The position numbers were made by a program, and so were the translations under genes. A stretch of 64,000 nucleotides of DNA from Phycisphaerae bacterium (lineage in GTDB: Bacteria; Planctomycetota; Phycisphaerae; UBA1845; Fen-1342): contig JAGNKU010000006.1 of NCBI GenBank assembly GCA_017999985.1, positions 242,276 to 306,275 of the forward strand. Direction: 5' to 3'. Positions within the stretch are counted from its first letter, which is position 1, and every line of letters starts with the position of its first letter. Of this stretch, positions 49,915-54,330 are shown piece by piece. The notes beneath the pieces are model-generated. The model was not told where the DNA came from and did not search any database. It worked only from the letters and a program-made list of their open reading frames with translations.

Positions 49915-49924
49915 TCGGATAGAA

Positions 49925-49961
49925 CTCCCCTCCCTTCCATGGAGGGGGCAGGGGGAGGAGT
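49925..49961 (-). repeat. C-rich hairpin element, copy 2 of 5 (inverted)
   Basis: Read on the minus strand it is the same element as at 36692: CTCCTCCCCCTGCCCCCTCC, then ATGGAAGGGAGGGGAG. It fills the gap between convergent cls and the RlmI-like gene, overlapping the latter's stop by one base. Confidence 0.65.
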
Positions 49962-51208
49962 TAAAGCACGCGGAACCAGAGCACTTTCAGATACGCCGAC
50001 TCGGGGCAGTCCAGCAGCATCGGATGATCCGGGGCCGCGCCGCTTTGATCGAACAATTGCAGCGCACGCCCAGCACGCTGCGCCGCGCGCCGCACCGTCT
50101 CGAGAAACGCACTGCGCGACACCAGCCCGCTGCAACTGCACGTCACGAACACGCCGCCGGGACGGACCACCTGCAGCGCGAGTGCGTTCATGTCGCCGTA
50201 CTTCCGCAACGCGTCCTCGTATTCCTCGCGATACGTGACCAGCTTCGGTGGATCGAGGACGACCACGTCGAACTGTCGCTGGTTCGCGAGCATCTGCCGC
50301 ACATACGTGAACGCGTCGGCGTACACGAAATCGACGCGCGTCTGGTTGAGATTGGCGTTTTCGCGCGCAATGGCGATCGCGGCCTCGTCGAGGTCCACGC
50401 CGGTGACGGCCCGCGCGCCGCCCAGCTTCTGCGCACAGAGCGCAAACCCGCCGGTGTAACAGCACAGGTCGAGCACTTCCGCGTCGCGGCAAAGCGTCGC
50501 CAGCCGGCGGCGGTTGTCGCGCTGGTCGCAGAAGAAGCCGGTCTTGTGCCCCTCCTTGACATCGACGCGGTAGCGGATGCCGTGCTCGCGGATCGTGAGG
50601 CGGGTCGATGCATCGCCGCCCGGCAGATCGGGATGCACGGGGACGGTGAAGCCTTCGAGCCGTTCAACGCGCGGGTCGGCGCGGAGGAACATCCGCCAGG
50701 TCGGCGACGCACGGTCCGGGCGGTCGAGCGATGTCGGCGGGCCGAGCACCTCCGCGAGCAGCGTGCCGAGCTCGCGGGCGCGCTGGAACATCGCCAGCGA
50801 GAAGACCTCGAACACGAGGCTGTCGGCGTAGCGCTCCACGATCAGGCCGCTGAGGCCGTCGCCCTCGGCGTGAACGAGGCGATACGCGTCCGTGGCGGCG
50901 TCGAGGTCGAGGCGGCGGCGGAGGGCGACTGCCCGCTCCAGACGGGCACGCCAGAACGCCGTGTCGACGGGAATGTCCTCGTGCGTGAGGATGCGGACGA
51001 CGATCTGCGAACGCGGGTTGTACAGGCCGCGGCCGAAGTAGCGACCGGATTTGTCGTACAGGTTGACGATGTCGCCGGGCCGGGCGGCGGGGTCGGCGGA
51101 GCGGACCATCTTGCGGTAGACGAACGGGTGCAGCGACGCGGAGCGCAGGAGGACCCAGGGCGACCGGGCGTCCGGCGGGGGTTCGACGTGGTGCGGCTCA
51201 CGCGACAC
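49961..51208 (-). CDS. rlmI: Class I SAM-dependent rRNA methyltransferase (RlmI-like)
   Basis: The 415-residue protein has an N-terminal PUA-like part (HPFVYRKMVRSADPAARPGD, YNPRSQIVVRILTHED), a central beta domain (VHAEGDGLSGLIVERYADSL) and a Rossmann methyltransferase: GHKTGFFCDQRDNRRRLATL, VLDLCCYTGGFALCAQKLGG for SAM, and VVVLDPPKLVTYREEYEDAL with FVTCSCSGLVS. This is the RlmI/YccW family that makes m5C in 23S rRNA. The exact target base is inferred from family. Start ATG 51208. Confidence 0.87.
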   Translation of the reverse strand: MSREPHHVEPPPDARSPWVLLRSASLHPFVYRKMVRSADPAARPGDIVNLYDKSGRYFGRGLYNPRSQIVVRILTHEDIPVDTAFWRARLERAVALRRRLDLDAATDAYRLVHAEGDGLSGLIVERYADSLVFEVFSLAMFQRARELGTLLAEVLGPPTSLDRPDRASPTWRMFLRADPRVERLEGFTVPVHPDLPGGDASTRLTIREHGIRYRVDVKEGHKTGFFCDQRDNRRRLATLCRDAEVLDLCCYTGGFALCAQKLGGARAVTGVDLDEAAIAIARENANLNQTRVDFVYADAFTYVRQMLANQRQFDVVVLDPPKLVTYREEYEDALRKYGDMNALALQVVRPGGVFVTCSCSGLVSRSAFLETVRRAAQRAGRALQLFDQSGAAPDHPMLLDCPESAYLKVLWFRVL

Positions 51209-51312: not shown

Positions 51313-51343
51313 ATCCGAGCCCGAAGCGCAAGCGAGGGCCATC
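51313..51343 (+). repeat. 31-bp inverted repeat, left copy
   Basis: The sequence starting ATCCGAGCCCGAAGCGCAAG and ending CGAGGGCCATC is the exact reverse complement of 52919-52949. The pair brackets the tandem duplication. Confidence 0.85.
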
Positions 51344-51350
51344 TGTTCCT

Positions 51351-51378
51351 TTGCTCCTTGACCGGCCACGCACATAAT
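51351..51378 (+). promoter_or_regulatory. Candidate promoter, first duplicate
   Basis: TTGCTC (51351-51356), a 16-nt spacer and CATAAT (51373-51378). The same site is preserved upstream of the second duplicate at 52131-52158, which supports function. Confidence 0.45.
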
Positions 51379-51435
51379 TGTCACGGGGCCGCGGCGTGGC
51401 AAGAGAGGCCCCGGCGAACTTCGGAGTCAGCGACC

Positions 51436-52011
51436 GTGCGCGAGCAACCGGACGATGCGATCGAGAAACGCGACGACCCAGCAGTCGTGCGGTATGCGGC
51501 GCGTCCATCGCCGCGGGGGATCCGTTTCCTTATCTATTGCGTCCTTGGCATGTCCGTGGGCTTGCTTCTGCTATTCGCATACTGGGCTCGCCCGAGGGTC
51601 CACAGTCGCGACATTTCTCCGCGGGCATGGTGTGCCTCAAACCTGCGCGGAATCGGCCAAGGCCTGAAAGTGTACGCTTCCGATTACGCGGACGCGTATC
51701 CTCCCACGCTGCGGACCTTGATCGATGACGGCGTAGTAACCGCGTGGCAACTCATCTCCCCCGTCTCGGGGCATGCCACGCCGGCCTGCGACTACTACTA
51801 CGTCACCGGCCTGACACTCAACGATCCGGCCATGTGGATCGTCGCCTACGGCGATCCGGCGTACCTGAAGGGCGCAGGCGCAAATGTCCTTTATGTAGAC
51901 GGGCACGTCGCTTTCGTGAAGGAGCCGCAGTTTTCGCAGGACCTGGCGCGCTTCAGGGCCGACTACGAGACGGCCCGCGGCACGCCGCCGGTGATCATTC
52001 CGCCGCGCTAA
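51436..52011 (+). CDS. Secreted H-X9-DG-like (pseudopilin-related) protein, copy 1
   Basis: The 191-residue protein has a charged N-terminus (REQPDDAIEKRDDPAVVRYA), one membrane helix (FLIYCVLGMSVGLLLLFAYW) and a C-terminal domain with ASNLRGIGQGLKVYASDYAD, YPPTLRTLIDDG, DYYYVTGLTLNDPAMWIVAY and GANVLYVDGHVAFVKEPQFS. The VLYVDGHV end resembles the H-X9-DG domain of type II-pseudopilin-like planctomycete proteins, but the conserved His is replaced by Lys and no prepilin cleavage motif is seen. GTG 51436 has GGAG upstream at about 9 nt. It is half of a tandem duplication. Confidence 0.7.
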   Translation: MREQPDDAIEKRDDPAVVRYAARPSPRGIRFLIYCVLGMSVGLLLLFAYWARPRVHSRDISPRAWCASNLRGIGQGLKVYASDYADAYPPTLRTLIDDGVVTAWQLISPVSGHATPACDYYYVTGLTLNDPAMWIVAYGDPAYLKGAGANVLYVDGHVAFVKEPQFSQDLARFRADYETARGTPPVIIPPR

Positions 52012-52068
52012 CGTCGTAGCGGCCGACCCCCGAGTCGGCCGTTGTGTGTGATACCGCGCCTACGCTCG

Positions 52069-52106
52069 ACCCTCCCTCTGCCCCCTCCCTGGAAGGGAGG
52101 GGAGTT
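52069..52106 (+). repeat. C-rich hairpin element, copy 4 of 5
   Basis: ACCCTCCCTCTGCCCCCTCC followed by CTGGAAGGGAGGGGAGTT, with a perfect CCCCTCCC/GGGAGGGG 8-bp stem. It lies 58 nt after the stop of duplicate 1 and is a plausible terminator. Confidence 0.65.
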
Positions 52107-52130
52107 ACACCGCGACACACATCGATTCCT

Positions 52131-52158
52131 TTGCTCCTTGACTGGCCACGCACATAAT
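52131..52158 (+). promoter_or_regulatory. Candidate promoter, second duplicate
   Basis: TTGCTC (52131-52136), 16-nt spacer, CATAAT (52153-52158), identical boxes and spacing to the site before duplicate 1. Confidence 0.45.
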
Positions 52159-52216
52159 TGTCGTGGGGCCGCGGCATGGCAAGAGAGGCCCCCGGCGATC
52201 TTCGGAGTCAGCCACC

Positions 52217-52795
52217 GTGCGCGAGTACCCCGGCGATGCGATCGAGAAACGCGACGATCCAGCAGTCGTGCGGTATGCGGCGCGTCCATCGCGGCGGGGA
52301 ACACGTGTGCTCGTCCTCTGCGTTGTCGGCCTGCTCGTGGGCATGCTCCCGCTATTGGCGTACCGGTCTATTCCGCGGATTCACAGTGGGCGCGACACGT
52401 CGCCGGGAGGCCAATGCCGTTTCAACCTTCGTATGATTGGCAACGGTCTTGAAGTGTACGCTCTTGGCAACTGTGACACTTATCCGCCCGCCTTACGGGC
52501 TTTGATTGACGATGACACGCTCATCCCGCAGCAACTGGTTTCGCCTCTGTCGGGACATACCCAGCCCACGTGCGACTACTACTACGTTACCGGCCTTACG
52601 CCCAACGATCCCGAAACGTGGATCGTCGCGTACGCCGATCCTGCCTACACAAACGGCGAAGGCGCCAACGTCCTGTATCTCGACGGTCACGTTGACTTCG
52701 TGAAGGAGCCGCAGTTTTCGCAGGACCTGGCGCGCTTCAAGGCCGACTACCAGAAGGCCCGCGGCGCGCCGCCGGTGATTATTCCGCCGAATTGA
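52217..52795 (+). CDS. Secreted H-X9-DG-like (pseudopilin-related) protein, copy 2
   Basis: The 192-residue paralogue of the preceding gene has the same plan: REYPGDAIEKRDDPAVVRYA, a membrane helix (VLVLCVVGLLVGMLPLLAYR), FNLRMIGNGLEVYALGNCDT, DYYYVTGLTPNDPETWIVAY and GANVLYLDGHVDFVKEPQFS. The two genes are nearly identical in DNA over the upstream 90 nt, the first 40 codons and the last 30 codons, but differ strongly between. GTG 52217 has GGAG upstream as in copy 1. Function unknown; surface exposure is inferred from the single N-terminal helix. Confidence 0.7.
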   Translation: MREYPGDAIEKRDDPAVVRYAARPSRRGTRVLVLCVVGLLVGMLPLLAYRSIPRIHSGRDTSPGGQCRFNLRMIGNGLEVYALGNCDTYPPALRALIDDDTLIPQQLVSPLSGHTQPTCDYYYVTGLTPNDPETWIVAYADPAYTNGEGANVLYLDGHVDFVKEPQFSQDLARFKADYQKARGAPPVIIPPN

Positions 52796-52844
52796 GGCGC
52801 GATCCGCGGCGCCGTATTGCGGCAAGGCGACAGCCGAGCGCTCA

Positions 52845-52882
52845 ACCCTCCCCCTGCCCCCTCCCTGGGAGGGAGGGGAGTT
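52845..52882 (+). repeat. C-rich hairpin element, copy 5 of 5
   Basis: ACCCTCCCCCTGCCCCCTCC followed by CTGGGAGGGAGGGGAGTT, with a perfect CCCCTCCC/GGGAGGGG stem. It lies 49 nt after duplicate 2. Confidence 0.65.
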
Positions 52883-52918: not shown

Positions 52919-52949
52919 GATGGCCCTCGCTTGCGCTTCGGGCTCGGAT
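52919..52949 (-). repeat. 31-bp inverted repeat, right copy
   Basis: Exact reverse complement of 51313-51343. It lies 11 nt downstream of the thrC stop on the minus strand. Confidence 0.85.
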
Positions 52950-52959
52950 TGGGGGCGCG

Positions 52960-54330
52960 CTACGTTGTGAACCGTGCTTGCAGCCAAGCTCGGAATGGCT
53001 CGTACGCCGCTGGCAAGTGCTCGTAGGACTCCGGCTTCTTTTCCAGGCCCGCCAGGCTGGGCGGCACCTCCGGATCGACGCCGATCGTCGCCTGGATCTC
53101 TTCCGGGAACTTCGCCGGATGCGCCGTCTCCACGCTGATCGCCAAGCGCTCCGCCGCCGCGGGCTCGTCGCGGAAATAGCGCATCAAGCCCGCCCAGCCG
53201 ACCGCGCCGTGCGGCTCCAGGATTACGCCGTAGCGGTCGTACGCGTCCTTGATCGTCGCACGCGTCTCGTCGTCCGGAATGCTGACGGCGTACAGGTCGC
53301 GACGCATGCGGTCCATGTCCGGCGGCCGGCGCAGTCCGCCGGTCTCGTCCATGTGGCCGCCGTAGGCATCGACGAGCCGCGCGAGGTTCGACGGGTGGCC
53401 GACGTTCATCGCGTTCGAGATGCACACGCGCGACGGCGCGATCTTCTGATAGCGCCCCGTGCGCAGGAAATTCGGCACCTCGTCGTTCGCATTTGTCGCG
53501 ATGACCAGCCGCGCGATCGGCAGCCCCATGCGCCGCGCGATGACGGCCCCCATCATGTCGCCGAAATTGCCCGACGGCACGCAGATCGTGACCGGCTCGC
53601 CGCTGGCGGCGTCCGCCAGATTCACGTACGCGTACACGTAATACACGCTTTGCGGCAACAGCCGGCCGATGTTGATCGAGTTCGCCGAGCTGAGCCGGAT
53701 CGCCCGCAGGGCCGGGTCGGCGAACGCCTGCTTCACCATTGCCTGGCAATCGTCGAACTGCCCATCTACGGCGATCGTCGTCACGTTGCCGCCGATCGTC
53801 GTCATCTGCTTGCGTTGCCGGTCGGACACCTCGGCCGGCGGGAACAGCACGACGACACGCACATGCGGCACGCTGTGGTACGCGTGCGCGACGGCGCTGC
53901 CGGTGTCGCCCGACGTCGCGGTCAGGATGACAAGGTCGCCCCCCTGCTGCCGCATCAGCACGCCCATCCAGCGGGCCATCATGCGGGCGGCGAAGTCCTT
54001 AAACGACGCGGTCGGGCCGCGATCCAGCCGCAGCAGATGCCAGTTGCGCGTTACGTGCTCGGTCGGCACCGCAAAGTCGTATGCGTCCGCGCACAATTCC
54101 CGTAGCGTCGCGCCGTCGAACACGCCGCGCGTGTACGGCTTGAGCAGCGCGAATGCGACCTCCGGGTACGGCTTGCCCCGCAACGTGGCCAATTCGGCGG
54201 CCGAGAACGCCGGGAATGATTCCGGCATGAACAGCCCGCGATCGGCGGCCTGGCCCTGCAGCAGGGCCGCGTCCAAGGTCACGGGCGGCACGTCATGGTT
54301 GGTGCTGTAATATCGCAGTGGTTCGGTCAT
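52960..54330 (-). CDS. thrC: Threonine synthase
   Basis: The 456-residue protein is a PLP enzyme converting O-phosphohomoserine to threonine. Seen are MTEPLRYYSTNHDVPPVTLD, DRGLFMPESFPAFS, the PLP-lysine motif GPTASFKDFAARMM, ILTATSGDTGSAVAHAYHSV, SSANSINIGRLLPQSVYYVY and VPSGNFGDMMGAVIARRMGL. Length fits the E. coli-like ThrC branch (about 430). It is divergent from a Cys/Met-metabolism PLP gene, so two homoserine-consuming branches face each other across a 205-nt gap. Confidence 0.94.
   Translation of the reverse strand: MTEPLRYYSTNHDVPPVTLDAALLQGQAADRGLFMPESFPAFSAAELATLRGKPYPEVAFALLKPYTRGVFDGATLRELCADAYDFAVPTEHVTRNWHLLRLDRGPTASFKDFAARMMARWMGVLMRQQGGDLVILTATSGDTGSAVAHAYHSVPHVRVVVLFPPAEVSDRQRKQMTTIGGNVTTIAVDGQFDDCQAMVKQAFADPALRAIRLSSANSINIGRLLPQSVYYVYAYVNLADAASGEPVTICVPSGNFGDMMGAVIARRMGLPIARLVIATNANDEVPNFLRTGRYQKIAPSRVCISNAMNVGHPSNLARLVDAYGGHMDETGGLRRPPDMDRMRRDLYAVSIPDDETRATIKDAYDRYGVILEPHGAVGWAGLMRYFRDEPAAAERLAISVETAHPAKFPEEIQATIGVDPEVPPSLAGLEKKPESYEHLPAAYEPFRAWLQARFTT

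Follow-up and report, generated by a model that had tools for sequence, protein, structure and literature searches.

Similar ends and a diverged middle in two neighbouring pilin-like genes of a Phycisphaerae bacterium: probable gene conversion after an old tandem duplication

Genes A and B, two neighbours in the window (the whole 64,000-nucleotide stretch of Phycisphaerae bacterium DNA analysed here), are built of segments of two different ages, and the middle is under purifying selection. At silent and non-coding sites, the divergence of the ends is 5-15 times lower than that of the middle. Our preferred explanation, to which we give a probability of about 0.68, is an old tandem duplication, the ends of which were later homogenised by patchy gene conversion. 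A unit of ~780 bp, consisting of the leader, the gene and a trailing dispersed repeat, would have been duplicated and the copies would first have diverged, after which the neighbouring genes would have exchanged sequence by homologous recombination with no net crossover; we infer conversion as the process of this exchange. The leader and the first ~27 codons would have been copied from one copy to the other and the last ~32 codons separately, leaving untouched the middle and the spacer downstream of the stop codon, both of which would have retained their old divergence. The divergence of the middle may now hinder exchange there.

Identity along the gene pair

Both genes are intact and lie side by side on the plus strand, where the initial annotation had placed them (Table 1), and over the whole protein they share 70% amino acid identity. 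The DNA identity, computed in 40-base windows (A coordinates), was 0.88-0.97 at 51353-51511, 0.53-0.70 at 51512-51785, 0.72-0.88 at 51766-51925 and again 0.88-0.97 at 51906-52004. The pair has two similar blocks. The 5' block (~180 bp, ~92% identity) takes in 96 bp upstream and codons 1 to ~27; the 3' block is ~97 bp long with ~95% identity, and between the two the identity drops to ~62%. The similarity sets in at 51340/52120 and ends with the last codon; the 45-50 bp past either stop codon are unalignable between the copies, and in both a dispersed repeat comes next. As a 1-base indel near 51408, upstream of the GTG, shifts the frames of A and B out of register, the region upstream of the GTG is leader DNA and not coding. 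Counted from the GTG, 24 of the first 27 residues are the same, as are 26 of the last 30, with one synonymous difference in the latter.

Table 1. Features of the A-B locus and its surroundings (positions in the window)
Feature	Position	Strand	Description
Gene A	51436..52011	+	GTG 51436, stop 52011; 191 aa; open frame; predicted single-helix membrane protein with pilin-like outer domain
Gene B	52217..52795	+	GTG 52217, stop 52795; 192 aa; open frame; tandem paralogue of A
rRNA methyltransferase, RlmI kind (rlmI)	49961-51208	-	name read from the translation; flanks the A-B pair
Threonine synthase (thrC)	52960-54330	-	name read from the translation; flanks the A-B pair on the other side
5' block of A	51340..51523	+	leader DNA and first ~28 codons; ~92% identity to B
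5' block of B	52120..52304	+	partner of 51340-51523
Diverged middle of A	51524..51907	+	carries membrane helix, long helix and sheet; DNA ~62% identical to B; near-saturated silent sites
Diverged middle of B	52305..52691	+	counterpart of the A middle
3' block of A	51908..52004	+	last strand, C-terminal helix, tail; ~95% identity to B
3' block of B	52692..52788	+	partner of 51908-52004
Dispersed palindromic repeat after A	52063..52106 (palindrome 52071-52106)	+	CCCCTCCCT..AGGGAGGGG
Same dispersed repeat after B	52839..52882 (palindrome 52847-52882)	+	93% identity to the copy after A
Same palindromic repeat after rlmI	49923-49958	-	intergenic

In the initial annotation the upstream DNA, the first 40 codons and the last 30 codons had been described as nearly identical, which holds for the upstream DNA and the last 30 codons, but the N-terminal stretch is really ~27 codons long. 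The strong divergence described there for the membrane helix and the central domain was found again in the sliding windows. The uneven divergence itself was seen both in the sliding-window alignment and in a three-segment scan, in which one contrasting inner segment was sought among the 132 codons whose residue is shared by A and B, and in both the ends are far closer than the middle. The boundaries of the scan fell at codons 28 and 158, with 46/81 codons identical inside versus 48/51 outside, a contrast matched by 0/1000 shuffles.

Silent sites and selection

Between A and B, dS is 0.05-0.18 at the ends versus 0.9-2 in the middle; by codons it is 0.10 (1-27), 1.35 (28-115), 2.06 (53-115), 0.88 (116-156) and 0.05 (161-190). 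The neutral sites of the leader, the N-terminal segment and the C-terminal segment have one common low divergence (homogeneity p 0.52), from which the middle is strongly different. One cause of this pattern offered initially was diversifying (positive) selection on an exposed middle domain once the gene had duplicated, and the amino acid differences do cluster in the middle, where B may also have changed faster than A (13 vs 4 unique changes with the outgroup gene G010, p 0.049, with a weaker contrast for other outgroups). However, dN/dS values of the middle lie for the most part at 0.14-0.26 with dS near saturation (0.26 in codons 28-115, 0.16 in 53-115 and 0.14 in 116-156), and diversifying selection is therefore not supported; the highest value in 20-codon windows, 0.65, lies around the membrane helix. 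The diverged part takes in the membrane helix and the buried core and not the surface alone, and since such selection predicts even silent divergence along the gene, the uneven silent divergence also speaks against it, making this cause hardly credible.

The common age of all end segments would also be expected from a single recent duplication, which counts against conversion. According to that account, the whole unit was duplicated recently and one middle was then replaced by a homologous but diverged one, taken from a different lineage or from a lost paralogue, with the recombination anchored in the shared ends. We consider this unlikely, although the about equally low divergence of the end segments, the middle distance between A and B, which is nearly that of A to a gene of another genus, and the sharing of some middle residues by B with G002 and by A with G010 all fit it. 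A replaced middle leaves the spacer after the stop codon, which is also unalignable, to a second change; no donor with a closer middle was found in the genome or the relatives; and the best middle trees mostly still pair A with B, with weak support. Old duplication with patchy conversion is preferred because no such donor was found and because diverged sequence flanks the 3' block on both sides, the kind of pattern expected from patchy exchange.

A closer relative was found neither in 101 relatives nor in 114 genomes of the order, and two scans of genome contigs gave no confirmed match. In G002, which belongs to another genus, a single homologue adjoins the same methyltransferase gene (rlmI), and the A-B locus is therefore probably older than the genus. 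For the possibility raised in the initial annotation, that the two copies are separately inherited orthologues, this homologue gave a partial check: trees of the middle were compatible with placing it with B, with A and B together or with neither (AU p 0.3-0.5). No convincing copy beside rlmI or thrC was seen in 16 relatives with flanks examined, and the G002 homologue is the only one beside rlmI.

Relatives as a control for constraint at the ends

As constraint is an alternative explanation for similar ends, relatives were taken as a control, with G010, G016, own_C1, G008 and G005b as outgroups; the relatives come from other genera. At residues 60-156, A is 60% identical to G010, the closest gene in another genus, and 64% to B, and at the 3' end (residues 157-191) the values are 51% and 83%, so that between A and G010 the 3' end is less conserved than the middle. 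Bootstrapping of the contrast between 3' end and middle gave P 0.005 with G010 and 0.03 with G016, and was non-significant with own_C1, G008 and G005b (2/5 outgroups significant overall). Of the same-residue codons at the 3' end, 27/29 are identical between A and B versus 62/93 between A and the outgroups (p 0.004); codon bias thus lifts the silent identity of the 3' block even across genera, and that of A and B is higher still. Because three of the five outgroups gave no significance and codon bias raises the silent identity, the 3' evidence taken alone is moderate. These sequence comparisons give moderate support to the view that a family-wide constraint of equal strength is absent at the 3' end. 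For the 5' block, no counterpart exists beyond A and B, and no other copies of it were found in the genome; its contrast is numerically strong and includes non-coding DNA.

It could be argued that the ends have been kept alike by constraint on DNA or RNA (a shared promoter, leader or codon bias) while the middle simply changed faster and no exchange took place, as the family shows moderate conservation of the C-terminal motif and even genes of different genera have raised silent identity at the 3' end. This is very improbable given how little the silent and non-coding sites of the ends have diverged compared to the middle; moreover, A and G010 differ more at the 3' end than in the middle, and the leader matches no Rfam family and is not predicted to fold with unusual stability. 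Conversion at the ends, the other cause proposed in the initial annotation, is supported by the young silent and leader sites at both ends, by a middle near saturation and by genes of other genera, which do not show a matching 3' constraint (significant with two of the five outgroups).

Protein family and fold

A and B appear to be membrane-anchored, pilin-like proteins near the H-X9-DG/DUF1559 families, as judged from profile matches and a structure model. Both exceed the curated cut-off of 19 bits of TIGR04294 (H-X9-DG), with 22.2 bits in A and 19.4 bits in B, in a match that covers model positions 8-22 only. The histidine of this motif, 9-10 residues before DG, is present in the relatives and replaced by Leu in A and by Thr in B. 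With DUF1559/SBP_bac_10 (PF07596), A scores 14.2 bits, below the gathering threshold of 23.3, and B has no match; 16 of 33 relatives match it at E < 0.1.

The structure of A was modelled from 33 sequences with a mean pLDDT of 90.7. In the model, a membrane helix (26-50) and a long helix (62-83) are separated by a low-confidence break at 51-61 and followed by a small sheet and a C-terminal helix (165-181), and the N-terminus has low confidence. The best VIA-align match was 6xxd_A (Z 6.6, rmsd 3.2, 91 residues), and the best 10 matches were all pilins. Foldseek alone gave no match at E < 0.001 (E 0.13), and a profile search of PDB sequences yielded PilA4 at E 0.025 only. By inspection, the prepilin peptidase site (Gly, Glu at +5) is absent from both proteins (PRGIRFLIYCVLG in A, RRGTRVLVLCVVG in B). 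An extracytoplasmic binding or scaffolding role would be our guess.

The same pilin-like domain ends a protein of ~750 aa, L013, in the same genome (C5:266015-266422), which is found in most genomes of the order and is probably the conserved member of the family. In two proteins of other genera, L051 (G010) and L052 (G008), the domain stands behind a DUF4190-like multi-helix N-terminus; as A and B have their own short tail and one helix instead, the anchor seems to have been exchanged within the family.

Comparison with known systems

A similar layout is known from Helicobacter pylori, in which babA/babB(/babC) and homA/homB have an N-terminal homology region, a variable middle and a highly similar C-terminal region, and the end segments of babA/babB and homA/homB have been homogenised by intragenomic gene conversion (PMC4552749, PMC2795765). 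For homA/homB, within-strain Ks was 0.05 in segment 3 versus 0.24 in segment 1 (PMC4552749, PMC2795765). A and B share with these genes both the layout and, at synonymous sites, the young ends and the old middle. In contrast, the Helicobacter genes encode outer-membrane adhesins at separate loci and were studied in many strains, while A and B are adjacent, pilin-like and from one genome.

The DUF1559 group is large in other planctomycetes: Planctopirus limnophila has 68 paralogues (PMC10632474) and Rhodopirellula baltica 74 (PMC2754498). These families also point to a planctomycete as the source of the genome. A and B resemble H-X9-DG/DUF1559 (SBP_bac_10) proteins in the conserved NLRxIG helix, YYV strand and VLYVDGH motif, and differ from them in the replaced histidine, the lack of a prepilin signal and their own short N-terminal tail. 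To type IV pilins and the pseudopilins of type II secretion they are alike in the predicted membrane helix followed by a small head of helix and sheet, but they have no prepilin peptidase site, carry a tail of 25 residues before the helix and have no assembly genes alongside. A limited literature search found no earlier description of patchy gene conversion in this protein family; the mechanism is already known, and the family and the host are new for segmental conversion as far as that search shows.

Wider occurrence

In ~9 other genera of the order, family members lie close together on the same strand, with tandem examples in G005 C580, G004 C29, G051 C117, G076 C614, G055 C41 and G108 C280. 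When the identity of the 3' end was compared with that of the middle over 33 sequences, the two highest excesses were those of the G005 pair (genus g6, z 4.0) and of A and B (z 2.7), with 2.6 for the best non-tandem pair; the G004 tandem pair was ordinary (z -0.4), and in the other tandem pairs the number of aligned end residues was too small for a score. These comparisons are a hint, not proof, that homogenisation of the ends may recur among tandem pairs. One could speculate, though we think it rather improbable, that tandem H-X9-DG/DUF1559 arrays across the order are a diversity-generating layout, in which the leader and N-terminal segments and the C-terminal segments would serve as recombination anchors kept alike by conversion while the central domains between them would diverge or be exchanged, and that this would have helped to build the large paralogue sets.

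A and B are evidence of segmental gene conversion in a very large pilin-like family of undefined function, and as such conversion would act on the family, whole-gene trees and duplication dates can be misleading. If the pattern recurs, the end segments could offer a handle on how one genome gains dozens of paralogues.

Composition, leader and repeats

Third-position G+C of A (51436-51906) and B (52217-52690), with the 3' block excluded, is 0.64-0.78, well below the 0.87-0.89 of the neighbouring genes. As a sign of conversion bias, third-position G+C gave no consistent picture, since the two ends disagree and the relatives disagree too. A leader RNA element was considered and rejected after the Rfam and folding results given above, and a promoter scan of the leaders found sigma-70-like sites on the minus strand only.

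The dispersed repeat that trails both genes is intergenic, with ~28 sites in the genome and a REP-like look. A second palindrome, CGGCCGACCCCCGAGTCGGCCG, at ~52020-52044 is dispersed too. The A-B pair is also bracketed by a 31-base dispersed repeat, present in identical and inverted copies at 51313-51343 and 52919-52949, the core of which occurs at 19 sites in the genome compared to 0 for a reversed control pattern.
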